Assembly (NCBI RefSeq): GCF_003234965.1
Contig: NZ_QKVK01000002.1
Span: 1-64,000, forward strand
Length of the DNA stretch: 64,000 nucleotides
Origin: Aestuariivirga litoralis
Lineage (GTDB): Bacteria; Pseudomonadota; Alphaproteobacteria; Rhizobiales; Aestuariivirgaceae
Direction: 5' to 3'
Positions 9,759 through 26,770 of the stretch are shown piece by piece. The position numbers were made by a program, and so were the translations under genes. The notes under the pieces are model-generated. The model made no database searches and was not told where the DNA came from. It worked only from the letters and a program-made list of their open reading frames with translations. The stretch's first letter is position 1, and every line of letters starts with the position of its first letter.

Positions 9759-12488
9759 TCAGCCCGTCCAGCCGAGGCCGGCGGCCACGCAGTTCATGGT
9801 CATCAGCAGCGGCATCATCAGCTTTTCATCGCCCTTGCCGCGGCGCGTTTCCTTCAGCAGCTGGACCTGCCAGCGGTTGGCCTGGTCGACCATGGGGCGC
9901 ACCCGCTCGAAGCGGCGCTGCAGGCCTTCGAAGCGTTCGCACAGGCGGCTCTCGCCGGTGAGTTCGAGGATGGTGCGCGCGGTGCGGCTGTGCTCATGGC
10001 GGATCAGCGCGAAGAGGCGTTCGGCCGAGGTGCGGTCGGTGACCAGCTCGGCATATTGCTCGGCGACATCCATGTCAGCGAGGTAGAGCGACTTCTCGAC
10101 TTCATCGACCGCCAGGCGGAAGCCGCGCGAGCGGGCGAACATCTCGCGCAGCAGCTTCATGCCGTCGGCACCGCGCGGCACCAGGAAGTCGTCGAAGGCA
10201 TAGCCCAGCCCATACCAGCCGGTGAGCAGGTGGCGGTTCTGGCTCCAGGCAAAGACCCAGGGAATGGCGCGCAGGTCGCCGATGCCCTTGGCGCCGAAGC
10301 GGCGCGCCGGGCGCGAGCCCAGCTTCAGGTTGGCGAGTTCCTCCACCGGCGAGGCCTGGTGGAAATAATCGAGCAGCCCCTTGTCCTCGGCGAGCTTGCG
10401 GTAATGCCGGAAGGAGGCCTGGGCGATCCACTCCACCGCCTTCTGGTGCTCCGGATTCACCTTCAGCTCGGGCTCGTCGATGGACTTCAGCGTGTGCACG
10501 AAGACCGAGGCGGCGAGGATTTCGAGATTGTGCTGCGCCGTGCCGCGGTTGGCGAATTTGGACGAGACGACCTCGCCCTGCTCGGTCACGCGCATGTGGC
10601 CGTTGATGGTGCCGGCGGGCTGCGCGGCAATCGCCCGCCCCGTGGGAGCACCCCCGCGGCTCACCGAACCGCCGCGGCCATGGAAGAAGCTGATGGAGAC
10701 ACCCGCATCGCGGCCGATGCGGATCAGCCGGCGCTGCGCCTCGAAGAGCTCGAAGCTGGCGCAGAAGAAGCCGCCATCCTTGTTGGAGTCGGAATAGCCC
10801 AGCATCACTTCCTGCCGCCCGCCATGGAAGGCGACGGAGGTCTTCACCACCGGGTGCGCCAGGAGCTCCGTCATGATGGCGGGTGCGGCGCGCAGGTCGT
10901 CGATGGTTTCGAACAGCGGCACCACGCGGATGCGGCAGGTCTCGCGCGCGTTCTCGTCGGCGAAGAGGCCGGTGAACTTGGCAAGAAGATAGAGGCCCAG
11001 CACGTCCGCCGCCGACTGCGTCATCGACAGGATGAAGGCGCCGATGGCCTGCGGGTCCGGTCCGTCGATGGTGTCGCGGATGAGTTCCAGAAGACCCAGA
11101 AGCTCGCGCGCCTCGTCGGAGACGCCACGGAACTGCGGCAGGAAGCCCAGTGGCTTCGCCAATTCCGCCTCGATCCAGGCCTGCCATGCGGTCGAACCGA
11201 TCTCCGGCCCCTCGCCCGGCTCCAGCGGGTTCAGCTTGCGCCAGATTTCCTTCAGCACGCGGTTGATGACGGTGGTGTTCTGGCGGATGTCGAGGCTCAC
11301 CGAACGGAAGCCGAAGGTCTCAACCTCCCAGCGCACGGGCCGAACCAATGTGGAGGCCAGCGAGACGGACTGCATCTGCGCAAGCGCCTCCTCGGCAGCG
11401 AGAAGCTCGCCGATCAGTTCCTCCGTGTCGATCGGCTGGAAGCCCGATCCCTTGGCACCTTCACCGAAGGTCTTGGCCAGCCGGACGCGCAGCGCCGTGA
11501 AGAAGCGGCGGAAGGGCTCATGCATGTTGCGGTTGCCGATGGCCTCCGCCTCGCCCGACAGGTCGACCTGGCGCTGCACGCGCTCGAGGAAGGCGAGCGG
11601 GAAGGAGATTTCCTGGGTGGACAGCGAGACGAGCTGCGCGAGGTCATTCAGCCGCTGCTCCAGCCGCGCCACGATGGCATTGCGGTTCTCCTTCAGCGCG
11701 AAGCGGGTGACGTCGACGGTGACGAAGGGATTGCCGTCACGGTCACCGCCGATCCAGGAGGAATAGCGCAGCGGCGGGCGCACCCGGTGCGGCGTCTCCG
11801 GATAATGGCGCTGCAGGGCGGCCTCCAGCAGGTCGCAGAGGCTCACCGTGCGGTCGAACAGCGTCTCGCGGAAGAAGTGCAGGCCCCAGTGGATCTCCTG
11901 CTCCACCGTCGGCTTCTCCAGCCGGATTTCGCCGGTGAGCCAAAGGAGGTCGATCTCGTTCCTGAGCAGCTTGAGGAGATGGACGCGCTCGCGCGGCGTC
12001 CAGCGCGGGCTCTCGAGCTCATAGAGCTTCAGATAGATGCGGCGGTGGATCTCGAGGACGGTGACGCGCTTGGCCTCCGTCGGGTGCGCCGTGATGGTGG
12101 GCTGCACGTCGATGGTGTCGAGTGCCGTCTGAACAGCTTCCGGCGCCACATTGGCGGCGGCCACGGTGGCGAAGGCATGCGAGAAGGAGCCCGGCACCTG
12201 GTCCGGCCCGCTGCGCGTTTCCATCTGGCGGCGGTTCCGCATCGCGGCGTTCTCCTCCGCGATGTTGAGGAGCTGCAGCCACATGCCGATCACCTGCAGG
12301 GCGGGCTCGATCAGCTCAGGCGCCAGGGCGGAGGCATTGGCCGGTTCGTCGATGATCGCCAGCACGCGCGGCTCGCGCACCCGGATGACCTGCCGCAGCA
12401 GGTCGCGCAGCATCATGGTGATCTCGTCGAGATAGGCGCTGTCGACCGGCCCGGTGCTGGCCGCCCTTGCGAAAGCTACGTTCGACAC
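9759..12488 (-). CDS. ppc: phosphoenolpyruvate carboxylase
   Basis: Carboxylates PEP to oxaloacetate, an anaplerotic step that also operates in the serine cycle. About 909 residues. I prefer the GTG at 12488, which has AGGAG 10 bases upstream, over the TTG at 12506, whose purine-rich stretch is too close. Catalytic motifs are TITAHPTEAKR, GYSDSNKDGG and FHGRGGSVSRGGAPTGRAI. The C-terminus reads AAGLGWTG instead of the usual AAGxRNTG, keeping the final Thr-Gly but losing the usual Arg and Asn. Divergent from the ABC-F gene. Confidence 0.95.
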   Translation of the reverse strand: MSNVAFARAASTGPVDSAYLDEITMMLRDLLRQVIRVREPRVLAIIDEPANASALAPELIEPALQVIGMWLQLLNIAEENAAMRNRRQMETRSGPDQVPGSFSHAFATVAAANVAPEAVQTALDTIDVQPTITAHPTEAKRVTVLEIHRRIYLKLYELESPRWTPRERVHLLKLLRNEIDLLWLTGEIRLEKPTVEQEIHWGLHFFRETLFDRTVSLCDLLEAALQRHYPETPHRVRPPLRYSSWIGGDRDGNPFVTVDVTRFALKENRNAIVARLEQRLNDLAQLVSLSTQEISFPLAFLERVQRQVDLSGEAEAIGNRNMHEPFRRFFTALRVRLAKTFGEGAKGSGFQPIDTEELIGELLAAEEALAQMQSVSLASTLVRPVRWEVETFGFRSVSLDIRQNTTVINRVLKEIWRKLNPLEPGEGPEIGSTAWQAWIEAELAKPLGFLPQFRGVSDEARELLGLLELIRDTIDGPDPQAIGAFILSMTQSAADVLGLYLLAKFTGLFADENARETCRIRVVPLFETIDDLRAAPAIMTELLAHPVVKTSVAFHGGRQEVMLGYSDSNKDGGFFCASFELFEAQRRLIRIGRDAGVSISFFHGRGGSVSRGGAPTGRAIAAQPAGTINGHMRVTEQGEVVSSKFANRGTAQHNLEILAASVFVHTLKSIDEPELKVNPEHQKAVEWIAQASFRHYRKLAEDKGLLDYFHQASPVEELANLKLGSRPARRFGAKGIGDLRAIPWVFAWSQNRHLLTGWYGLGYAFDDFLVPRGADGMKLLREMFARSRGFRLAVDEVEKSLYLADMDVAEQYAELVTDRTSAERLFALIRHEHSRTARTILELTGESRLCERFEGLQRRFERVRPMVDQANRWQVQLLKETRRGKGDEKLMMPLLMTMNCVAAGLGWTG

Positions 12489-15087: not shown

Positions 15088-15372
15088 GTGAGACGGATTG
15101 AACGAGACGAGCGGGCCCTTCCCCTTGCAGACGCCCCTACAACCGCAAGTCTCTATTGCCTCGCCGCCATGGTGGCTGACGAGGCCTCCCAGGCCGGTTT
15201 CCGTGATTTTGCAAAGGCCATCGAGGCGGCCCTGGGCGGCTTCCTCGCCACCCTGCCGGCGGAGCAGCAGGCCAATGCCCTGCGCCTGTCCTATGAGCTG
15301 GCCATGAACAGCGTCGATGACGACACCGCCGAGCCTGCCGCGCCGCGCCTGCGGCTGGTCTTTTCGCGCTAG
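15088..15372 (+). CDS. small hypothetical protein
   Basis: A 94-residue protein that I do not recognise. The start is the GTG at 15088, preceded by GGAG at a 6-base spacing. The frame is open further upstream, but that part has no good ribosome site and an unnatural composition. The protein is mostly predicted helix (LYCLAAMVADEASQAGF, AALGGFLATLPAEQQANALR) with an acidic stretch before RLRLVFSR. Its TAG overlaps the TAG of mttB-1 on the other strand in the tetranucleotide CTAG. Confidence 0.6.
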   Translation: MRRIERDERALPLADAPTTASLYCLAAMVADEASQAGFRDFAKAIEAALGGFLATLPAEQQANALRLSYELAMNSVDDDTAEPAAPRLRLVFSR

Positions 15373-16892
15373 AAGTCGGTCTTTTCTCCGCCCTCGCTGA
15401 CGCGGCGGGCCACGAAGGCATCGATTTTCTCCAGCGCCTCCGGGTCCAGCCACGGCTCACGGTATTCGGCCAATGCCTGTTTCCACAGCGCATTGGCCTT
15501 TTTGTCTGCCGTCGGTGAACCCGCCTGCTGCCAGGCCTGGAAGTTCCGCCAGTCGGAGATCATTGGCTGGTAAAATGCCGTTGCGTAACGTGCCAGCGTG
15601 TGCTGCGCGCCGAAGAAGTGCCCACCCGGCCCCACCTCCTGCATCGCCTCGAGTGCCATTTCGGCCTCATCGACCACCACGGGCTTCAGGAATTCCTGCA
15701 GCATCTGGAGAAGGTCCACGTCGAGCGCGAACTTCTCGTAGGAGGCGACGAGGCCGCCCTCCATCCAGCCTGCCGCGTGCTGGATGACGTTGCCGCCACC
15801 CATGATGGCACCCCACAGCGAGAACACCGTCTCATAGGCCGCCTGGGCATCGACGCTGTTCGCGGCATTGGTGCTGGACGTGCGGTACGGGAGCCCGTAG
15901 CGCCGCGCCAGCTGCCCGCCGATGATGCAGGCCTTCATGTATTCCGGCGTGCCGAAGGCAGGTGCGCCCGACTTCATGTCGACGTTGGAGGTGAATCCGC
16001 CATAGACGAAGGGTGCACCGGGGCGCACGAGCTGCGACAGGGCGAGGCCCGCGAGCGCCTCGGCATTCTGCTCCACCATGCCACCCGCGAGCGACACCGG
16101 CGCCATGGCGCCGAGCAATGTGAAGGGTGTCACCACCACAATCTGGTTCAGCCGCGCCATCTCGATGATGCCCATGGCCATCGGCATGTCGAGCTTCAGC
16201 GGCGAATTGGTGTTGATGACGGTGTAGGCGGACGGTTCCTGCAGCAGCTGCTCTTGGCTGATCCCGCGGGCGAGCCGGATGATCTCCAGCCCGTCGAACA
16301 GCCGCGCGCGTCCCGTCGCATAGATGAAGGGCACCTTGTCGGAATAGACCATCTTGTTGCGTGTGATGTGCAGATGCCGGATCGAGGCATGCACGTCGAG
16401 GGCATCGACGGAGGCGCCACCGGCCGTGTGCACGGTGTTGAAGAACTGCGCGAGCTTCACGAAATTGCCCGCATCCTCCAGCGTGCCGGGCCTGCGCCCG
16501 CGGTCGAGGTCGGAGACATTGGGGGGACCTCCCACCGGCGCGAAGGCGATCCACTTGCCGCCGACGCGGATATTGTGCGCGGGGTTCCGCGCATGGAAGG
16601 TGAACTCGGAGGGTGGCGACTTCAGCGCCTCCTCGATGATGTCGCGCCCGATCCGCACCCGCTCGCCGTCGACCAGCGCCCCCGCCTTTTGCAGGATATC
16701 GCGCGCCTCGGGCAGCAGCACATCCATGCCGATCACCTCCAGCACCTTCAGCGACTGGCGGTGGATCGCCTCGACCTGGTCGTCGGAGAGGATGCGGGAA
16801 GGCGCCAGCGTGTGCTGCGGTTGCTGCCACGGCAGCTGCTGGATCGGCGTATGGGCCGCATCGGCACGCCTGCCGCGGCGCTGGATGTTCAT
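15369..16892 (-). CDS. MttB-family (COG5598) corrinoid methyltransferase, paralogue 1
   Basis: A 507-residue TIM-barrel methyltransferase of the trimethylamine-methyltransferase superfamily. It has no in-frame amber codon and ends at TAG, so it is the non-pyrrolysine type. Characterised relatives demethylate quaternary amines such as glycine betaine and pass the methyl group to a corrinoid protein. Conserved blocks are FTFHARNPAHNIRVGGKWIA, VINTNSPLKLD, GGFTSNVDMKSGAPAFGT and EVGPGGHFFGAQHTLARY. It is a close paralogue of the product of 18792-20354. Its ATG is fused to the psuG stop (TGATG), and it is the last gene of the operon. Substrate unknown. Confidence 0.88.
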   Translation of the reverse strand: MNIQRRGRRADAAHTPIQQLPWQQPQHTLAPSRILSDDQVEAIHRQSLKVLEVIGMDVLLPEARDILQKAGALVDGERVRIGRDIIEEALKSPPSEFTFHARNPAHNIRVGGKWIAFAPVGGPPNVSDLDRGRRPGTLEDAGNFVKLAQFFNTVHTAGGASVDALDVHASIRHLHITRNKMVYSDKVPFIYATGRARLFDGLEIIRLARGISQEQLLQEPSAYTVINTNSPLKLDMPMAMGIIEMARLNQIVVVTPFTLLGAMAPVSLAGGMVEQNAEALAGLALSQLVRPGAPFVYGGFTSNVDMKSGAPAFGTPEYMKACIIGGQLARRYGLPYRTSSTNAANSVDAQAAYETVFSLWGAIMGGGNVIQHAAGWMEGGLVASYEKFALDVDLLQMLQEFLKPVVVDEAEMALEAMQEVGPGGHFFGAQHTLARYATAFYQPMISDWRNFQAWQQAGSPTADKKANALWKQALAEYREPWLDPEALEKIDAFVARRVSEGGEKTDF

Positions 16893-17809
16893 CAGCCTTG
16901 CTCCGCAAAGGCGACGGCGATGGCCGCGGCAATCTTCGCATTGTGCTTGGCGAGTGCAATGTTGGCGGCAAGCGAACGGCCCGCCGTCACGCCGGCGATC
17001 TCGGCGAGCAGGAAGGGAGTGGTCTCCTTGCCCATGATACCCTGTGCTGTCGCCTTTTTCACCGCGGCATCGATCACCGGTGCTATCTCCTCGGCCGGGA
17101 TTTCGGCCTCCGCCGGAATCGGATTGGCGACCACCAAGCCGCCCTTCAACCCCATTGCCCATTTGGCGCGCATCACGCCAGCGACCTCCGATGGCGTGTT
17201 GCAGGTCATCGGCACGACATGGCCGCTCTTTCTCGAATAGAAGGCCGGGAACTCCTTCGTGCCGAGCCCGATTACCGGCACGCCCAGCGTCTCCAGCGTT
17301 TCGAGCGTCAGTGCGAGGTCGAGGATTGCCTTGGCACCAGCCGTGACGACGGCCACGTCGCTGGCGGCAAATTCAGTCATGTCGGCGGAAATGTCGAAGG
17401 TCCTCTCCGCCCCGCGATGCACGCCACCGATGCCGCCCGTGGCGAAGACATGAATGCCCGCCATCGCCGCGATGCGCATGGTGGAGGCAACCGTCGTCGC
17501 GCCATCGAGCTTCTGCGCCACGATGAAGGGCAGATCACGCACCGAGACCTTGGCAATCGATCGCCCGTCCCGACCGAAACGATCGAGTTCCTCCGCCGTC
17601 AGCCCCACCTTCAGCACACCGCCGATGATGGCGATGGTCGCGGGCACAGCGCCACCCGCGCGCACGATGTCCTCGACGGCCCGGGCCGTCTGCACATTCT
17701 GCGGATAGGGCATGCCATGGGCGATGATGGTGGACTCGAGCGCCACCACGGGGCGCCCTGCCGCCAGCGCGCCTTGCACCTCGGCGGTGATGGAGAGTTC
17801 AATGGCCAA
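16892..17809 (-). CDS. psuG: pseudouridine-5'-phosphate glycosidase
   Basis: Cleaves the C-C glycosidic bond of pseudouridine 5'-phosphate to uracil and ribose 5-phosphate. About 305 residues. Family blocks are PVVALESTIIAHGMPYPQN (catalytic Glu), IAKVSVRDLPFIVAQ (substrate Lys), VFATGGIGGVHRGAE and VVTAGAKAILDL. The TTG at 17809 has TGAGG at good spacing. A GTG at 17821 is the alternative, and no ATG fits. It sits between psuK and mttB-1, overlapping the latter by one base. The E. coli psuG neighbourhood also has psuK, but no methyltransferase. Confidence 0.93.
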   Translation of the reverse strand: MAIELSITAEVQGALAAGRPVVALESTIIAHGMPYPQNVQTARAVEDIVRAGGAVPATIAIIGGVLKVGLTAEELDRFGRDGRSIAKVSVRDLPFIVAQKLDGATTVASTMRIAAMAGIHVFATGGIGGVHRGAERTFDISADMTEFAASDVAVVTAGAKAILDLALTLETLETLGVPVIGLGTKEFPAFYSRKSGHVVPMTCNTPSEVAGVMRAKWAMGLKGGLVVANPIPAEAEIPAEEIAPVIDAAVKKATAQGIMGKETTPFLLAEIAGVTAGRSLAANIALAKHNAKIAAAIAVAFAEQG

Positions 17810-17839
17810 AAAACACCTCACGGCTGCCTTGTTGCCTTG

Positions 17840-17868
17840 CCTTCTCCCGTCCGCAGGATGGGAGAAGG
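17840..17868. repeat. intergenic hairpin repeat in the psuK-psuG gap
   Basis: Perfect 9-base arms (ccttctccc and gggagaagg) enclose gtccgcaggat, followed by tgcccgaagg. It resembles a dispersed hairpin element common in rhizobial genomes. It lies in the only sizeable gap (about 77 bases) of this otherwise coupled operon and could tune psuG and mttB-1 expression. Confidence 0.65.
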
Positions 17869-17886
17869 TGCCCGAAGGAAGGGAAG

Positions 17887-18792
17887 CTAAAGCCCAGCGA
17901 GCCGGAAGAGACTATCACGGCTGAGGCCGGATGCCACGGACTGCGCGGACGACAGCTTGATCGCCGCCGCACATTGCCCGAGCCGCGCCGCCTCGGCGAG
18001 CGGTCTTCCATCGAGAAGCCCGCAGACGAGCCCTGCAACCGCCGCATCACCCGCGCCCGTGACGTCGGCAATGGCGGCGACGGCCACGGGACCGACCTTC
18101 ACGGCCGCCACGCCATCCGATGCGATGGCTCCTTCGCCGCCACGATGCAGGACCACGTTGGCGAAGCCAAGATCATGAAGCCGCCCCAGGGCGCCCTCCC
18201 CGTCACCCGCCAGCGCCGACAGCTGCTGCGCATTGGGTGTGATGGCGAAGACGGGCACTGGCCGCCTGAAGGACAGGAGCTTCCGCGCCTTGGGCACCGA
18301 GACGGGTTCGATCAGCAATCTCACTCCGCTGCGGGCCGAGAATTCGCACAACCAGGTCAGGCAGGATTGCGAGAGGTTGCAGTCGGCAACCAGCATGTCG
18401 GCGCTCCCCAGCTGATCGGCGCAACCTTCGAGATGCTGCGTTGTCAGCGTCTCGATGGCCCGCATGTCATTGATGGCGCTGACCAGCTCTCCCGTATCGT
18501 CGAGAACGGCCAGGTATGAACCCGTCGGCGCATCCGACGTCAGCGCAAGCCCGAGATCGACACCAGCGGCGGCGCAGGCCTGCCGCAGCATCTGCCCGTT
18601 GGCATCATCGCCGATGGCGGTGACCAAGGACACCGAAAGCCCCACACGCGCCAGGTTCTCCGCGATGTTGCGCCCCACGCCACCGGCGGAGACCGTCACG
18701 TCACCGGGGTTGGACGTGCCCGCAACATAGGCTCCGCGGGCCCGGCCCTTGATGTCGACGTTCGCACCGCCGATGACGACGACGCGCTGCAT
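17887..18792 (-). CDS. psuK: pseudouridine kinase (PfkB family)
   Basis: Phosphorylates pseudouridine to the 5'-phosphate, the substrate of PsuG. The 301-residue protein aligns by eye with E. coli PsuK from the start: VVVIGGANVDIKGR, SNPGDVTVSAGGVGRNIAEN, a TGELVSAINDM stretch and ADMLVADCNLS. The PfkB anion hole and catalytic base occur in DVTGAGDAAVAG. The ATG at 18792 is fused to the mttB-2 stop (TGATG). Cytosolic. It is the upstream half of the psuKG pair embedded between the MttB paralogues. Confidence 0.92.
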   Translation of the reverse strand: MQRVVVIGGANVDIKGRARGAYVAGTSNPGDVTVSAGGVGRNIAENLARVGLSVSLVTAIGDDANGQMLRQACAAAGVDLGLALTSDAPTGSYLAVLDDTGELVSAINDMRAIETLTTQHLEGCADQLGSADMLVADCNLSQSCLTWLCEFSARSGVRLLIEPVSVPKARKLLSFRRPVPVFAITPNAQQLSALAGDGEGALGRLHDLGFANVVLHRGGEGAIASDGVAAVKVGPVAVAAIADVTGAGDAAVAGLVCGLLDGRPLAEAARLGQCAAAIKLSSAQSVASGLSRDSLFRLAGL

Positions 18793-20354
18793 CAGAAGTC
18801 GGTGGGCGCACCACCCTCGGCCTTGCGCTTCTCGACGAAGGCGTTGAGTTCATCGCGGATCGCGGGCTCGATGAAGGGTTGCTGGTAGTCCGCCAGCGCC
18901 TGCTTCCACACGGCATTGGCCTTCTGCCAGGCCTCCGGCTTGCCGGCGGCGAGCCACTGCTGGTTGTTGCGCCAGTCGGAGATGATCGGCGAATAGAAGG
19001 CATTGGTGTAACGGGCGAGCGTGTGCTGCGCGCCGAAGAAGTGCCCGCCGGGGCCGACCTCGCGGATCGCCTCGACGCCGAGCGCGTCTTCCGTCGTTTC
19101 GAGAGGCTGCATGAACTCGCTCACCATCTGGATCAGGTCGCAGTCGAGCACGAATTTCTCGAAGCTGGCGACGAGGCCGCCTTCCAGCCAGCCCGCGCCA
19201 TGCATGATCAGGTTGCCACCGCCCATGGTGAGGCCCCAGAGCGAGAACACGCTCTCATAGGCCGCCTGCGCATCGACCGTGTTGGCGGCACAGGTGTTGG
19301 AGGTGCGGAACGGGATCTTGTAGCGCCGCGCCAGCTGGCCGCCGACGATGGTCGCCTTCATGTATTCCGGCGTGCCGAAGGCGGGTGCGCCCGACTTCAT
19401 GTCGACGTTCGAGGTGAAGCCGCCATAGATGACAGGTGCACCCTTGCGGACGAGCTGGGTAAAGGCGATGCCGGCCAGCGCCTCGGCATTCTGCTCCACC
19501 AGCGCGCCCGCCACTGTCACCGGCGCCATGGCGCCCGCCAGCGTGAAGGGTGTCACACAAACGATCTGGTTGCGCGACGACATCTCGAGGATGCCCTGCA
19601 GCATCGGCGTGTCGAGCTTCAGCGGCGAATTGGTGTTGATGATGGTGAAGAGCGAGGGTTCCTGCTCCAGCTGGTCGTGGGAGATGCCGCGGCCGATGCG
19701 GGCGATCTCGATCCCGTCCCGGATACGCTCGCGGCCAAGCGAATAGGCATGGAACGGCTTGTCGGTCAGCAGCACCATGTCGCGCAGGGCTTCGAGATGG
19801 CGCACCGAGGCATGGATGTCGATCGGCTCCACCGGATAGCCCGAGAGGAAGTTGATGCAGTTGAAGTACTGCCCCAGCTTCACGAAGTTGCGGTAGTCCT
19901 GGTAGTTGCCGGTGCGGCGGCCGCCATCCATGTCGGAGGCGTTGGGCGGGCTTGCCACCGTGCCGAACGATATGTAGTTGCCGCCGATGCGCTGGCTGTT
20001 CTCGGGGTTCCGCGCATGGAAGGTGAATTCCGAAGGCACCGTGGCGATCAGCTCCTCGATCATGGCGGGATCGAAGCGCACGCGCTCGCCTTCGACCCTG
20101 GCACCGGCCTTCTTCAGCATGTCGCGGGCTTCCGGCAGGGTGAAGTCCATGCCGATCTCGGAGAGCACCTTCAGCGACGCCTGGTGGATCGCCTCGAGTT
20201 CATCCGCCGAGACGATCTCCATCGCCGGGAACTGGCGCTTCAGCTTGCGGCGCGGCAGCTGCTGCACCGGGTGGCGCCCGTCGCCACCGGTGTTGCGGCG
20301 GCCTCCACCTTCGCGGCGGCTGCGGCGGGTGGTGTCGGAATCGGTATTCGTCAC
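18792..20354 (-). CDS. MttB-family (COG5598) corrinoid methyltransferase, paralogue 2
   Basis: A 520-residue protein with a GTG start preceded by AAGGA, 3 bases after the LysR stop. It shares the full domain plan with paralogue 1: FTFHARNPENSQRIGGNYIS, IINTNSPLKLDTPMLQG, GGFTSNVDMKSGAPAFGT and EVGPGGHFFGAQHTLARY. The N-terminus is basic and glycine-rich (RRSRREGGGRR). No in-frame amber codon, so non-pyrrolysine. The two paralogues differ mostly in the first half, which suggests either distinct substrates or a heteromeric enzyme. It heads the catabolic part of the operon, with psuK coupled behind it. Confidence 0.88.
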   Translation of the reverse strand: MTNTDSDTTRRSRREGGGRRNTGGDGRHPVQQLPRRKLKRQFPAMEIVSADELEAIHQASLKVLSEIGMDFTLPEARDMLKKAGARVEGERVRFDPAMIEELIATVPSEFTFHARNPENSQRIGGNYISFGTVASPPNASDMDGGRRTGNYQDYRNFVKLGQYFNCINFLSGYPVEPIDIHASVRHLEALRDMVLLTDKPFHAYSLGRERIRDGIEIARIGRGISHDQLEQEPSLFTIINTNSPLKLDTPMLQGILEMSSRNQIVCVTPFTLAGAMAPVTVAGALVEQNAEALAGIAFTQLVRKGAPVIYGGFTSNVDMKSGAPAFGTPEYMKATIVGGQLARRYKIPFRTSNTCAANTVDAQAAYESVFSLWGLTMGGGNLIMHGAGWLEGGLVASFEKFVLDCDLIQMVSEFMQPLETTEDALGVEAIREVGPGGHFFGAQHTLARYTNAFYSPIISDWRNNQQWLAAGKPEAWQKANAVWKQALADYQQPFIEPAIRDELNAFVEKRKAEGGAPTDF

Positions 20355-20357
20355 GGC

Positions 20358-21284
20358 TTACTTTCCTTTTTCGCGATAGGCGTCGAGGGCGGGGTCGGCG
20401 GCGATCTGCTTCACCAGCCAGTCCTCGAACCGCTTGATCTTGGGTTTCATGCGGTGCTCGGCATTGCAGGCGAAGAGCCAGTTGTGCCGGTGCTGAACCT
20501 TGAGGTCGAAGGGCTGCACCAGGCGGCCCGCCCTGATTTCCTCCGTGGCGAAGGGCCCGATGGTCATGGCCACCCCGCGCCCCTCGATCGCCGCCTCCTG
20601 CGCAAGTATGTAGCTGTCGAAGGCGAGGCGGTCGGAAAGCCTGATGCCCTCGACACCCGCCTCCTCGAGCCACAGGTGCCAGTCTTCCTCCGCCGTATAG
20701 ACATAGAGCAGCTTGTGCTTCTTCAGGTCCTCCGGCGTCTTCAGCGCATTGGGACCCCTCAGCAGCTCCGGCGCACAGATGGGCGTCAGCAGCGAGCGGA
20801 ACAGCGTTCGGTAATAATGGTCGGGCGAGCGGTTGCGGGCGAGGATGAGGCCGACATCGACATTCTTCTCGTCGAAGTCCCAGTCGAAATAGGAGGTGGA
20901 GAGCCGCACCTTCATGTCGGGGAAGCGCTTCTCGAAATCGTGCAGCCGCGAGATCAGCCATTTGAGCGCGACGGTCGCGTAGACCTGCACGGTCAGCTCA
21001 TTGTCGGCCGTCGAAGGCTTCAGGGCGCGGGTCTGGGCTTCGACCATGTCGAAGGCCTCGCGCACCGGCGGGAAATAGGTGTGGCCGGCCTGGGTGAGCT
21101 CGGCACGCCGCGCATCGCGCCGGAACAGCTGAACGCCGAGGCGCTGCTCCAGCGACTTCACCTGGTGGCTGACGGCCGAGCGGGTGATGCCCAGCTCGCT
21201 CGCCGCAAGCCTGAAACTGCCCAGCCGGGCGGCCGCCTCGAAGGCGGTCAGGGCGCGTAAGGGGGGCAGGTCGCGTCTGGCCAA
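20358..21284 (-). CDS. LysR family transcriptional regulator (GcvA-like)
   Basis: A 308-residue regulator. Residues about 5-65 hold the winged helix-turn-helix (ALTAFEAAARLGSFRLAASE, AVSHQVKSLEQRLGVQLFRR). The rest is a periplasmic-binding-like effector domain of the GcvA type (LLTPICAPELL, GVAMTIGPFATEEI). The start is a TTG at 21284 with GAGGA. First gene of the operon with mttB-2, psuK, psuG and mttB-1, and divergent from mttB-3, so it probably controls both directions. Confidence 0.9.
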   Translation of the reverse strand: MARRDLPPLRALTAFEAAARLGSFRLAASELGITRSAVSHQVKSLEQRLGVQLFRRDARRAELTQAGHTYFPPVREAFDMVEAQTRALKPSTADNELTVQVYATVALKWLISRLHDFEKRFPDMKVRLSTSYFDWDFDEKNVDVGLILARNRSPDHYYRTLFRSLLTPICAPELLRGPNALKTPEDLKKHKLLYVYTAEEDWHLWLEEAGVEGIRLSDRLAFDSYILAQEAAIEGRGVAMTIGPFATEEIRAGRLVQPFDLKVQHRHNWLFACNAEHRMKPKIKRFEDWLVKQIAADPALDAYREKGK

Positions 21285-21466: not shown

Positions 21467-23044
21467 ATGAGTGCTGTCGAAGACCTGTCCCGCCGCCGTG
21501 GCGGCCGTGAAGCCCGCCGTGCGCTGCGTTCGCGCCCCATCCCCATGGCCGAGGCCGCCGTCCGCCCCGGCATGCTGGGCGGCCAGTACAAGCCGCTGAC
21601 CGACGCCGACATGCAGCGCATCCACAAGACGGCGCTGAAGCTCTTGGAAACCGTGGGCCTCGCCCAGGCAATTCCCTCCTGTGTGGAAGCCATGACGGCG
21701 CGCGGCTGCTGGATGAATGCGCAAGGCCGCCTCTGCATCCCGGCGAGCCTCGTCGAGGACACGCTCGCCTCCTGCGCCCGCAACTTCGTGCTGCATGCGC
21801 GCGACCCGAAGCATGACATGGAGCCCTCGGGCAACCGCGTCTATTTCGGCACCGCCGGCGCCGCCGTGCACATCGTCGAGCCCGAGACCAAGACCTATCG
21901 CGAATCGCTGCTGGTCGACCTCTATGATGCCGGCCGCATCGTCGACAATTGCGAGCACATCCACTTCTACCAGCGCCCGGTGACGGCGCGCGACATGATC
22001 ACCGGCCACGACCTCGACATCAACACGATGTATGCCTGCCTCGCGGGCACCGAGAAGCATGTCGGCACCTCGATGGTCGATCCGGCCCATGTGGACGAAT
22101 GCCTGCAGATCCTCCATGTTCTCGCAGGCGGCGAGGACAAGTGGCGCGAGCGCCCCTTCGTGTCGCAGTCCAACTGCTTCGTGGTGCCGCCGATGAAGTT
22201 CGCCGAAGATGCCTGCCGCTGCCTCGAGGCTGCGGCGCGCGGCGGCATGCCGGTGCTGCTCCTCTCTGCCGCCCAGGCGGGTGCGACGTCCCCGGCAGCC
22301 CTTGCCGGCACCGTTGTCCAGGCCGTGGCGGAGTGCCTCGCGGGCCTCGTCTACATCAATTGCGTGGTGCCGGGCGCCATTGCGATCTGGGGCCCCTGGC
22401 CCTTCGTGTCGGACCTCCGCACGGGCGCCATGTCCGGCGGTTCGGGCGAGCAGGCGCTCATCACCTCGGGCTGCGCCCAGATGGGCCATTTCTACAATCT
22501 CACCGTCGGCTCGGCGGCGGGCATGTGCGACTCGAAGCTCCCCGACATGCAGGCGGGCTACGAGAAGGGTGTGACGGCCGGCATCTCGGCCATGACCGGC
22601 ATCAACATGCTCTACGAGTCTGCCGGCATGCACGCCTCGCTCCTGGGCTTCTGCCTCGAGAGCCTGCTGATCGACAATGACATGCTGGGTTCCATCAACC
22701 GCAATGTCCGCGGCATCGAGGTGAACGAGGACACGCTCTCCCTCGAGGTCATCGCCAATGTCTGCATCGAGGGCCCCGGCCACTATCTCGGCAACGAGCA
22801 GACGCTGGCGCTGATGCAGAAGGACTATGTCTATCCGCAGATCTCCAACCGCATGAGCCCCAAGGAATGGAACGAGGCCGGCAAGCCCGACATCGTCGAG
22901 CGTGCGGCGGCGCGCAAGCGCGAGATCCTGTCGACCTATTACCCCGAATACATCCCGCGCCACATCGACGAGATGATCCGCGCCAAGCACGACATCAAGC
23001 TGCCGCGCAGCGTGATGGAACCTGGCGACCCGCGCTGGGCGTGA
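21467..23044 (+). CDS. MttB-family methyltransferase, divergent paralogue 3
   Basis: A 525-residue member of the trimethylamine-methyltransferase superfamily, clearly more distant than the other two. It keeps FVLHARDPKHDMEPSGNRVY, the barrel-end ICIEGPGHYLGNEQTLALMQ and the C-terminal region. It lacks the GGFTSNVDMKSG block, which is replaced by VLLLSAAQAGATSPAALAG. No amber codon. Strong CAGGAGG ribosome site; monocistronic, with a terminator at 23072. Divergent from the LysR operon. It probably handles a different methylated substrate with the same corrinoid partner. Confidence 0.87.
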   Translation: MSAVEDLSRRRGGREARRALRSRPIPMAEAAVRPGMLGGQYKPLTDADMQRIHKTALKLLETVGLAQAIPSCVEAMTARGCWMNAQGRLCIPASLVEDTLASCARNFVLHARDPKHDMEPSGNRVYFGTAGAAVHIVEPETKTYRESLLVDLYDAGRIVDNCEHIHFYQRPVTARDMITGHDLDINTMYACLAGTEKHVGTSMVDPAHVDECLQILHVLAGGEDKWRERPFVSQSNCFVVPPMKFAEDACRCLEAAARGGMPVLLLSAAQAGATSPAALAGTVVQAVAECLAGLVYINCVVPGAIAIWGPWPFVSDLRTGAMSGGSGEQALITSGCAQMGHFYNLTVGSAAGMCDSKLPDMQAGYEKGVTAGISAMTGINMLYESAGMHASLLGFCLESLLIDNDMLGSINRNVRGIEVNEDTLSLEVIANVCIEGPGHYLGNEQTLALMQKDYVYPQISNRMSPKEWNEAGKPDIVERAAARKREILSTYYPEYIPRHIDEMIRAKHDIKLPRSVMEPGDPRWA

Positions 23045-23269: not shown

Positions 23270-23929
23270 ATGGAACACCCCATCCTCACCGCCATCCGCC
23301 GCGCGGGCTTCACGCCACTGGGCTGGTTCGAGCCGCAGCCTGATGACAAGATCCCGCACGGCGCCCGCTTCGTCATCCTCATCGGCAATGCCGGCCCCGA
23401 CATGTTCCGCCGCTTCGCCCACGAGCGCGACCCGCAGCGCGACGCAATGGATGACTGGACGCGCGACGTCGTCGGCAGCCTCGCACGTGATCTTGACGCC
23501 ACCGCCCTCTACCCCTTCGACATGAACCCGCCCTGGCCCTTCCTCAGCTGGGCGCGGCGCGGGGGTGCGGGCCATGTCTCGCCGCTTGGCCTCAACATCC
23601 ACCCGACTTACGGGTTGTGGCACGCCTATCGCGCCGCACTCCTGTTCCCCGTGGCCTTCGACCTGGCGCCCCAGCGGCCGGGGCCCCACCCTTGCGAAGC
23701 TTGCGCGGCGAAGCCCTGCCTCTCCGCCTGCCCCGTCGCCGCCTTCGACGGCACGCGCTACGACGTGCCCGCCTGCTTCGCCCACATCGCAACCAAAGCC
23801 GGAGCGGCGTGCATGACGCGCGGATGTCTTGCGCGCCATGCCTGCCCCGTGGGACAAGGCTTTGCCTATGCCCCGGCACAGGCGCAATTCCACATGCGGG
23901 CCTTCCTCAAGGCCCGCCAAGAGGCCTGA
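23270..23929 (+). CDS. 4Fe-4S cluster protein, epoxyqueuosine-reductase-like fragment fold
   Basis: A 219-residue protein. The C-terminal half has C142-x2-C145-x4-C150-x3-C154 (CEACAAKPCLSACPVAAF) and a second set at C181, C186 and C192 (CMTRGCLARHACPVG), plus C169. This arrangement resembles the ferredoxin part of QueG and of corrinoid-reducing proteins, but the protein is too short for a cobalamin-binding QueG. The N-terminal part is unassigned. Three bases separate it from the methyltransferase-like gene downstream, so the two are cotranscribed. Electron delivery to the corrinoid system is an attractive but unproven role. Confidence 0.75.
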   Translation: MEHPILTAIRRAGFTPLGWFEPQPDDKIPHGARFVILIGNAGPDMFRRFAHERDPQRDAMDDWTRDVVGSLARDLDATALYPFDMNPPWPFLSWARRGGAGHVSPLGLNIHPTYGLWHAYRAALLFPVAFDLAPQRPGPHPCEACAAKPCLSACPVAAFDGTRYDVPACFAHIATKAGAACMTRGCLARHACPVGQGFAYAPAQAQFHMRAFLKARQEA

Positions 23930-23932
23930 ACC

Positions 23933-24838
23933 ATGTATGACCTGATCCGCGCCAAGCTTGCCAAGGGCGACACCGTCATCCTCGACGGCGGCACCGGCAC
24001 CGACATCCAGCGCCGCGGCGTGCCGATGAGCTCCAACACCTGGTGCGCGGAAGCCAACATGTCCCACCCGGAGGTGGTGCGCGAGGTCCATGCCGACTAC
24101 ATCAAGGCCGGGGCGGACATCATCATCGCCAACACCTTCGCCACCTCGGCGCTGCTGTTCAACGCGCTGGGCCGCGACGATGAGCTTCTCGCCATCGACC
24201 GCGCCGCCGTCGCCATCGCGAAGGATGCCGCGAAGGGCCATCCGGTCGCCGTCGCCGGCTCCATGTCCACCATGCGCCCCGTTGTGGCGGGCAGCGACCG
24301 CACCTCGAAGCAGCAGGACTGGCCTGAGGACAAGGCCCGCGCCCTGTTCAAGCGCAAGGCGGACAATCTCGCCGCCGCCGGCGTCGACCTCATCATGATG
24401 GAGATGATGCGCGACACGGATTACTCCGTCTGGGCGACCGAGGCCGCACAGGCCACGGGTTTGCCTGTCTGGATCGGCATCTCGGTCGAGCGCCATGACG
24501 GCAAGCTCACCGGCTTCGGCCGCGAGGACCAGGATTTCGACGAAGTGGCCCGCGTGCTCTCCGCCCTCAAGCCCGATGCCATCTCCATCATGCACTCGTC
24601 CCCCAATGACACGGACGAGGCGATCGACGTGCTGCGCAAATACTGGAAGGGCCCCATCGGCGCCTACCCCGAGAGCGGCTATTTCAAGATGCCGGACTGG
24701 ACCTTCGTCGACATCATCCCGCCGGACGAACTGGTCGAGCGCTCCAAGGTCTGGAAGATGAAGGGTGTGAGCGCCTTCGGCGGCTGCTGTGGCTTAGGAC
24801 CCGATCACATCATCGCACTTCACAAGGCCTTCTCATGA
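23933..24838 (+). CDS. homocysteine S-methyltransferase-like protein with altered zinc site
   Basis: A 301-residue S-methyl_trans family TIM barrel (GGTGTDIQRRGV, ADIIIANTFATSALLFN). The C-terminal zinc cysteines are present (FGGCCGLGP, about 282-290). The first zinc ligand, normally Cys in a G-x-N-C motif, is replaced: the matching strand reads IMHSSPND (about 219-226). A His or Ser ligand, or loss of thiol activation, must be considered. It follows the Fe-S protein and overlaps the GFA gene by ATGA. In context it may accept or donate methyl groups in the corrinoid pathway. Confidence 0.85.
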   Translation: MYDLIRAKLAKGDTVILDGGTGTDIQRRGVPMSSNTWCAEANMSHPEVVREVHADYIKAGADIIIANTFATSALLFNALGRDDELLAIDRAAVAIAKDAAKGHPVAVAGSMSTMRPVVAGSDRTSKQQDWPEDKARALFKRKADNLAAAGVDLIMMEMMRDTDYSVWATEAAQATGLPVWIGISVERHDGKLTGFGREDQDFDEVARVLSALKPDAISIMHSSPNDTDEAIDVLRKYWKGPIGAYPESGYFKMPDWTFVDIIPPDELVERSKVWKMKGVSAFGGCCGLGPDHIIALHKAFS

Positions 24839-25411: not shown

Positions 25412-26047
25412 TCATGCCCGCGCCTTCAGGTCGCGCTCCAGCTCGCCATAGCCCGTGTAGCGATACTCGTAATCCAGCCCCAGCTTCTTCGCCGCCGCCA
25501 TGGCCTTCTTGGCCAGTTCCTCGTTTCGCGTCTGCGCCAGGAACACGATCTTGGTGTAGTTGCCGAAATACATCGGCAGCAGTTCCGGGTGCCGGTCCAT
25601 GCCGAGGCCCTCCCAGATCAGCTTGTCGAAATGCCGTGCCAGGTAGTCAGTAAGAAAGAAGGCGGTAACGTCCTCGTCCGCCGTCCTGGCGAACGTCTCC
25701 TGACCGGAGAAGAAGGCATAGCAATGCGGGCCTTCGAGGCGCTCGATCCCCTCCTCCGCCAGCAGCTTGTCGATGTCGCCGCCGGTGCCGCAGTCGCCAT
25801 AGAGCACGAAGATCGACTGGTAGCGGGGCTTGGCGTCCCGGATCTTCTCGCGCAGCGCCGGCACGATCTTGTCGGGCGTATTGTGCCACTTGGCGGGCAG
25901 GCACTGCAGGTCGAAACCCGTCCAGCGGTTGCGCTCGATCAGGTCCACGATCTCGCGCCCCAAAGCACCGCAGGCCAGGAGAAGAACCTTCCCCTGGCCT
26001 GGCTTGAACTCGAATTCGTCAGACGGCTTGAGATTGACAAGGGTCAT
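25412..26047 (-). CDS. DUF1638 family protein
   Basis: A 211-residue protein matching DUF1638: LLLACGALGREIVDLIERN, LPAKWHNTPDKIVPALRE, IFVLYGDCGTGGDIDKLL and an HFDKLIWEGLGMDRHPEL segment. DUF1638 genes are repeatedly found beside corrinoid-dependent methyltransferases, but their role is unknown. It follows the corrinoid protein gene by about 20 bases in the same direction. The conserved Cys and Asp residues suggest a ligand- or metal-binding role. Function not assigned. Confidence 0.85.
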   Translation of the reverse strand: MTLVNLKPSDEFEFKPGQGKVLLLACGALGREIVDLIERNRWTGFDLQCLPAKWHNTPDKIVPALREKIRDAKPRYQSIFVLYGDCGTGGDIDKLLAEEGIERLEGPHCYAFFSGQETFARTADEDVTAFFLTDYLARHFDKLIWEGLGMDRHPELLPMYFGNYTKIVFLAQTRNEELAKKAMAAAKKLGLDYEYRYTGYGELERDLKARA

Positions 26048-26068: not shown

Positions 26069-26770
26069 TCAGTTGGCAGCCATCTGGTTGTGCTTGCGGG
26101 ACATGAAGCCCTTGGCGGTCTCCACCGCCACCGCCGCGTCGCGGCAATAGGCGTCGGCGCCGATGGCCTTGGCGAAGTCCTCGTTGAGGGGCGCGCCGCC
26201 GACGAGCACCACGTAGTCGTCGCGCATGCCCTTTTCCTTCATGGTGTCGATCACGACCTTCATGTAGGGCATCGTCGTGGTGAGCAGCGCCGACATGCCG
26301 AGGATGTCCGGCTTGTGGGTTTCCATGGCTTCCAGGTACTTCTCGACCGGGTTGTTGATGCCAAGGTCGATCACCTCGAAACCGGCACCTTCCATCATCA
26401 TGCCGACGAGGTTCTTGCCGATGTCGTGGATGTCGCCCTTCACCGTGCCGATCACCATCTTGCCCTGGCGCGGAGCACCCGTGGCGATGAGCAGCGGACG
26501 GAGAATGGTCATGCCGGCCTTCATCGAGTTGGCCGCGAGCAGCACTTCCGGAACGAACAGGATGCCATCGCGGAAGTCGACGCCGACGATGCGCATGCCT
26601 TCAACGAGGGCCTCGGTCAGCACCTTGTAGGGGGCCCAGCCGCGGCCGAGCAGGATGTGAACCGCCGCCTCGACCTCTTCCTTCAGGCCGTCATAGAGGT
26701 CGTCATGGACCTGCTGTACCAGTTCCTCGTCATTGAGGGAGTTCAGGTCAAGTTCACCGTCATCGCTCAT
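26069..26770 (-). CDS. corrinoid (methylcobalamin) carrier protein, MtbC/MttC type
   Basis: A 233-residue protein. The N-terminal helical cap (about 15-95) is followed by a Rossmann B12-binding domain with the ligand motif KGDIHDIGKNLVG (D113-x-H115-x2-G118; His115 is the lower axial ligand) and GAGFEVIDLG. Such proteins shuttle methyl groups between an MttB-type enzyme and a second methyltransferase. It is the only corrinoid protein in the window and probably serves all three MttB paralogues. Cotranscribed with DUF1638. Confidence 0.95.
   Translation of the reverse strand: MSDDGELDLNSLNDEELVQQVHDDLYDGLKEEVEAAVHILLGRGWAPYKVLTEALVEGMRIVGVDFRDGILFVPEVLLAANSMKAGMTILRPLLIATGAPRQGKMVIGTVKGDIHDIGKNLVGMMMEGAGFEVIDLGINNPVEKYLEAMETHKPDILGMSALLTTTMPYMKVVIDTMKEKGMRDDYVVLVGGAPLNEDFAKAIGADAYCRDAAVAVETAKGFMSRKHNQMAAN

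Follow-up and report, generated by a model that had tools for sequence, protein, structure and literature searches.

The window analysed here, a 64,000-base stretch of the Aestuariivirga litoralis genome (contig NZ_QKVK01000002.1, positions 1 to 64,000), carries a mixed operon in which genes for a pseudouridine kinase (psuK) and a pseudouridine-5'-phosphate glycosidase (psuG) lie between two genes of the MttB methyltransferase superfamily, behind a gene for a LysR-type regulator. The minus-strand order is lysR, mttB2, psuK, psuG, mttB1 (Table 1); the open reading frames (ORFs), their strand and their order agree with an earlier note on this DNA, which proposed that the operon might degrade a methylated pseudouridine or another methylated C-nucleoside. 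Each of the two gene sets is also found without the other, so we consider it probable that the operon holds two separate salvage routes, expressed together under one regulator and acting on different substrates, and not one new pathway. This corresponds to the fallback that the earlier note allowed for, mere co-regulation of the MttB and PsuKG genes, and it is the best fit. Every enzyme comes from a known family; a limited literature search (titles and abstract openings) found no publication joining pseudouridine catabolism to MttB genes, which leaves absence in print unproven.

Within Aestuariivirga, the two modules come apart in both directions. Genome G014 (98% complete) has psuG and psuK next to a cysteine-rich protein gene of the type at 23270 in the window and to GFA, DUF1638 and corrinoid protein genes, in a locus that lacks lysR and all three mttB genes; the best mttB2 match anywhere in that genome is 40%. 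Genome G015 (100% complete) likewise has no mttB2-type gene, and its psuK stands at a contig end. The opposite split is seen in G025 (99% complete) and its matching record L065, which hold lysR-mttB2-mttB1 without psuKG and with no PsuG found in the G025 genome, and in G031 (93% complete), which keeps mttB2 at 91% identity. Right after the intact mttB2 of G031 (positions 11474-11787 of the matching record, L064), the first codons of psuK are fused to an internal fragment of psuG, by its sequence a decayed psuKG remnant. Seven loci (L089, L093, L098, L112, L118, L121 and L123) have lysR-mttB2 and a divergent mttB3 with no psuKG in the available DNA, which in L118 stops 79 bases past mttB2. MttB and PsuKG are not, then, kept or lost together. 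Their co-retention in the genus shows no significant association (Fisher p ~0.25) in a 2x2 table with rounded cells of 28 or 30, 2, 2 and 1 and with G006 and G022 omitted, a weak test given the few losses. We also considered whether mttB1 is tied to psuG; this is ruled out by mttB1 without psuKG in G025 and contradicted again by psuKG without a detected mttB1 in L069, L080, L086, L088, L090 and L092.

The linkage itself is neither an artefact nor a peculiarity of one strain, the latter being an outcome that the earlier note had allowed for. In a survey of 61 genomes, PsuG was found in 40 and MttB in 47. Within the genus, 34 of 37 genomes have PsuG, and an MttB gene adjoins psuG in 28 of these 34 (G008 being counted as linked by the match of its 9410-base contig to L116). 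The six unlinked genomes are G014 and G015, which lack an mttB2-type gene; G033 and G036, which have one on another contig; G022, with a 59% mttB2 fragment; and G006, with no mttB2 match above 48%. A contig end cuts the psuG or psuK neighbourhood in G015, G036, G022 and G006. Beyond the genus, Taklimakanibacter lacteus and two relatives (L075-L077), which entered the comparison through the similarity of their mttB2, have lysR-mttB2 and, some way further on, psuG-mttB1; the interval holds no psuK.

Further out, the linkage that the earlier note wished to see followed beyond close relatives was not seen in the genomes sampled. Among 121 psuG genomes sampled by kinship outside the genus (6 + 69 + 46), 70 also have MttB (1 + 38 + 31), and no pair lies within 10 kb among the matches listed, where the nearest is ~14.4 kb apart (G653). 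These distances were judged by eye, many of the genomes are multi-contig drafts, and the only MttB of G307 is not among the matches listed, so a pair could be missed. Of the six psuG genomes from the same order but outside the genus, one has MttB (G059), and none was found on its psuG contig. This sample does not bear out the linkage as a general bacterial habit, and we saw no independent second psuG-MttB linkage in samples that lie within the window's own phylum. The operon psuGs form a single clade (31 rows, support 98/91; 66 of 84 rows in a midpoint-rooted tree), adjacent to family f64, where psuG stands apart from the listed MttB genes. The simplest history suggested by this tree would be one capture event followed by inheritance, and chance could account for a single origin. 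In several genomes of family f49 (e.g., G214, G082, G391, G627 and G653), psuG lies ~14-70 kb from a high-scoring MttB gene; these arrangements are not operonic and perhaps reflect old regional synteny.

Gene spacing in the operon is tight. Both TGATG junctions claimed earlier can be read in the sequence, as GACTTC-TGATG-CAG at mttB2/psuK and CAAGGC-TGATG-AAC at psuG/mttB1, each with overlapping stop and start, and the GTG start of mttB2 lies 3 bases after the end of lysR. The exception is a 65-base gap between psuK and the listed GTG of psuG, which contains a palindrome-like sequence; in four close relatives (L060, L061, L066 and L086) this gap is 9 bases. The layout suggests one transcript and translational coupling. 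A longer mttB1 ORF, reaching to 17162, was discarded because it overlaps psuG in another frame.

How the arrangement has been kept bears on whether co-expression matters. One could suppose that psuKG landed downstream of mttB2 by chance and was kept by read-through transcription, with no benefit from co-expression. The single psuG clade, the loss of either module in some genomes and the lack of significant co-retention are all compatible with such an accident. We nevertheless consider it unlikely: the linkage holds down to ~65-70% PsuG identity while flanking genes change, and in most loci inspected mttB2 either runs into psuK or ends just short of it. In L088, L090 and L092, for instance, the holC, ABC-F and ppc flanks (labels read from translations) were not found, yet lysR-mttB2-psuK-psuG persists. 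A linkage that outlasts flanking synteny, together with the mttB2/psuK overlap, makes selection for co-expression more likely than hitchhiking alone but does not prove it; the benefit itself we infer.

What, then, do the MttB proteins act on? Judged by sequence, METHYLTRANSFERASES are classed as non-pyrrolysine MttB proteins. The model for the pyrrolysine trimethylamine MttB (TIGR02369) matches the two at 294 and 311 bits and its cut-off of 525 is not reached; both ORFs are without an internal stop, hence without an in-gene pyrrolysine (TAG) codon. The solved chain nearest both is 4yyc (408 bits for MttB2, 375 for MttB1). The glycine betaine methyltransferase 9yce ranks next with 2qne, at 338 bits (MttB2) and 347 bits (MttB1), and the trimethylamine methyltransferase 7xcl reaches 161 and 147 bits, respectively. 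In a quick, midpoint-rooted tree, MttB1 and MttB2 fall in one clade with mttB2 relatives from Comamonadaceae and Rhizobiaceae (113 of 149 rows, rows shorter than 380 amino acids and most mttB3 rows having been dropped and long branches flagged). Both this tree and the psuG tree exclude identical sequences and any match that covers less than 75% of the query.

The neighbourhoods of mttB2 relatives give a more specific indication. We took the best 80 of 574 relatives, so the counts describe nearest relatives. A script detected psuK or psuG in 25 of these loci; the remaining 55, where it detected neither, include L062, where a psuK start falls in the last 191 bases, and L064 with its remnant. A dimethylglycine-dehydrogenase-like gene lies within 3.5 kb downstream of mttB2 in 30 of the 55 psu-less loci and in none of the 25 others; seven of the 55 have fewer than 320 bases downstream of mttB2. 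The dehydrogenase-like gene matches the mitochondrial dimethylglycine dehydrogenase 5l46 at 3.6e-182, and in the Comamonadaceae-type loci it is followed by matches to soxB, soxA and soxG. These Comamonadaceae clusters of mttB, dimethylglycine dehydrogenase and sarcosine oxidase genes carry mttB2 relatives that are 65-71% identical and belong to the clade of MttB1 and MttB2. They differ in having betaine-oxidation genes directly downstream, where Aestuariivirga has psuKG, and the operon-type lysR was not found there by a scripted check of the same 80 loci. Such neighbours indicate glycine betaine or a closely related compound, and the substrate of MttB1 and MttB2 is probably a quaternary amine of this kind. 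The literature accessible in part names trimethylamine, glycine betaine, proline betaine, carnitine, gamma-butyrobetaine and choline as substrates of the superfamily, whose range is described as largely unknown in the available part of one report (PMC8604678).

Several observations weigh against parts of this interpretation. The nearest solved chain, 4yyc, bears the name "putative trimethylamine methyltransferase", and a dimethylglycine dehydrogenase is missing from 18 of the 55 psu-less loci whose downstream DNA is long enough to show one. That gene is also downstream in none of the 35 loci bearing the operon-type lysR (23 with and 12 without psuKG), so the betaine assignment rests on more distant relatives. 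In addition, the window's genome has, in another cluster (C12:257 kb), a dimethylglycine dehydrogenase that is 73% identical to the Comamonadaceae-type enzyme, and the MttB ~13 kb from it is a different one, with 39-40% identity to mttB2. A separate cluster with its own MttB means that MttB2 may serve another amine. On the pseudouridine side, no nucleoside transporter is present among the typed genes near the operon, some neighbours being untyped, and Taklimakanibacter and its relatives have no clear PsuK among the PfkB matches of their genomes, the weaker of which are untyped. For two of these three genomes NCBIfam assigns the best PfkB match to the ribokinases, and one more was typed by Pfam alone. 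Their PsuG could be fed by pseudouridine 5'-phosphate from RNA turnover.

The window's genome has nine MttB genes in total and one PsuG gene. At another of its loci (L177, G000:C6), a tandem pair of dimethylglycine-dehydrogenase-like genes comes after an MttB gene.

By sequence, PsuK and PsuG appear to be genuine pseudouridine enzymes of the standard kind. The claim that they match the Escherichia coli enzymes residue by residue stands for PsuG, with 181 of 294 aligned residues identical (62%), and is loose for PsuK, with 106 of 269 (39%). PsuG also matches the solved chain 4gij at 357 bits, and its K164 is the catalytic lysine, aligned to the lysine replaced by alanine in chain 4gim. Among solved structures, PsuK is closest to the pseudouridine kinase 7vkp (154 bits), followed by the unassigned sugar kinases 2nwh (124 bits) and 3kzh (117 bits), and the best chain labelled as a ribokinase scores 51 bits. 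Its top NCBIfam match is PRK09850, at 166 bits, although the cut-off of 540 is missed. We compared 14 positions of E. coli PsuK (N14, D16, S30, N31, G41, V42, N45, Y97, M114, D164, K170, N187, E190 and D256), and 12 are kept. The exceptions are D164, replaced by E162, and E190, which has no aligned residue; both are near the Mg2+ site proposed in the accessible part of PMC9247573. Ser30, which that part of the report ties to the N1 position and the active conformation, corresponds to S27 in the window. By this comparison, PsuK appears to keep the residues for unmethylated pseudouridine.

With these results, the integrated pathway of the earlier note can be weighed. MttB1 and MttB2 would demethylate an N-methylated pseudouridine (N1-methylpseudouridine, m1Psi, or its N3 counterpart, m3Psi) onto a corrinoid protein, and PsuK and PsuG would degrade the product. 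If so, the freed methyl group would feed methionine or folate, and the breakdown of modified RNA would connect with B12-dependent methyl metabolism. The idea has some appeal: the genes overlap, their linkage has long been retained, and the superfamily's substrate range is, as noted, described as largely unknown. According to the part of PMC9247573 available, E. coli PsuK binds m1Psi and has weak activity on it, which would make demethylation before phosphorylation sensible. The Taklimakanibacter psuG without a clear psuK also counts on this side. However, psuKG is kept without mttB2 (G014, G015) and mttB2 without psuKG (G025, G031), lysR-mttB2 exists without psuKG, six loci have no detected mttB1 beside psuKG, relatives of mttB2 adjoin dimethylglycine dehydrogenase in 30 loci, and the substrates named in the partly accessible literature are amines, a kind to which methylpseudouridines do not belong. 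Together with the standard PsuK residues, this leaves the methylated C-nucleoside pathway without specific support, and we regard it as very improbable. More remote still is the suggestion that PsuG uses pseudouridine 5'-phosphate released by the cell's own RNA turnover, thereby providing uracil and ribose 5-phosphate for nucleotide synthesis when methyl-folate is plentiful. The Taklimakanibacter operon, with psuG and no clear psuK, speaks for it; against it, psuK is kept in many operons of the genus, the window's PsuK retains its substrate residues, and the link to one-carbon metabolism is without direct support.

We thus favour two co-expressed salvage routes. In an ancestor of the Aestuariivirga/Taklimakanibacter lineage, an operon under LysR control that served to demethylate a quaternary amine (glycine betaine or related) by way of a corrinoid would have acquired a standard pair of pseudouridine-salvage genes. 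Through MttB2 and MttB1 the amine would lose a methyl group to the corrinoid protein encoded nearby, which would hand it on to folate or homocysteine. PsuK would convert pseudouridine to pseudouridine 5'-phosphate, and PsuG would split this into uracil and ribose 5-phosphate. Both substrates are probably set free by decaying cells. A catabolic operon would thereby have absorbed an unrelated salvage pair that most members of the genus retain, and Aestuariivirga would have a candidate corrinoid demethylation system. The case also urges caution: where natural losses of single modules exist, adjacency should not be taken to mean one pathway.

Table 1. Features of the mixed operon and its surroundings in the window.
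Feature	Positions	Strand	Assignment	Basis or remark
mttB1	15369-16892	-	second MttB, 507 aa	PF06253, 656 bits; 62% identity to mttB2
psuG	16892-17821	-	pseudouridine-5'-phosphate glycosidase	PF04227, 419 bits (cut-off 25.2)
palindrome-like sequence	17840-17867	-	28 bases, in the psuK/psuG gap	one copy within the window
psuK	17887-18792	-	pseudouridine kinase, PfkB	PF00294; best solved match 7vkp
mttB2	18792-20354	-	non-pyrrolysine MttB-superfamily methyltransferase, probably quaternary-amine:corrinoid methyltransferase	PF06253, 671 bits
lysR	20358-21284	-	LysR-type regulator of the GcvA subfamily, heading the operon	NCBIfam PRK11139, 294.9 bits (cut-off 288)
mttB3	21467-23044	+	third MttB, divergent from lysR	25-27% identity to mttB1/mttB2
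Cys-rich protein gene	23270-23929	+	cysteine-rich protein, 219 aa	no Pfam or NCBIfam match; kept beside mttB3
homocysteine S-methyltransferase-like gene	23933-24838	+	homocysteine S-methyltransferase-like protein	PF02574
DUF1638 gene	25412-26047	-	DUF1638 protein	PF07796
corrinoid protein gene	26069-26770	-	corrinoid protein, MtgC-like	PF02607 and PF02310

The operon resembles known systems in its parts. E. coli has the same two pseudouridine enzymes, PsuK (YeiC) and PsuG (YeiN), with key residues conserved in the window pair. Its psuK and psuG are accompanied by the transporter gene psuT, whereas in the window the pair has an MttB gene on either side and follows lysR in the operon, with no transporter among the typed genes. 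The lysR gene also adjoins mttB2-type genes in loci free of psuKG. An aldo/keto reductase gene, assigned by typing in L133, comes after psuG in L068, L069 and L133, and in L068 it lies between psuG and mttB1; it is another gene added in the same operon slot.

Beyond lysR, mttB3 is followed by the genes for the cysteine-rich protein, the homocysteine S-methyltransferase and a GFA protein, and then, on the minus strand, by the DUF1638 and corrinoid protein genes. The corrinoid protein matches the NCBIfam MtgC model at 204.8 bits and TIGR02370 at 178.9 bits, under the cut-offs of 370 and 215.3. As described in the part of PMC12478193 available, the glycine betaine system MtgBCD of Ruegeria comprises a PF06253 methyltransferase, MtgC, DUF1638 and RamA, with DUF1638 a predicted helper in corrinoid re-reduction. 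The MtgBCD/E system of Ruegeria pomeroyi and its relatives shares with the window a PF06253 methyltransferase, an MtgC-like corrinoid protein, DUF1638 and a homocysteine methyltransferase (PMC12478193, same part). The window differs in its two MttB genes enclosing psuKG and in a corrinoid protein that scores under the NCBIfam cut-offs. In many loci the cysteine-rich protein is conserved next to mttB3 and to the gene for the homocysteine methyltransferase; at a guess, it is possibly a corrinoid-reducing iron-sulphur protein.

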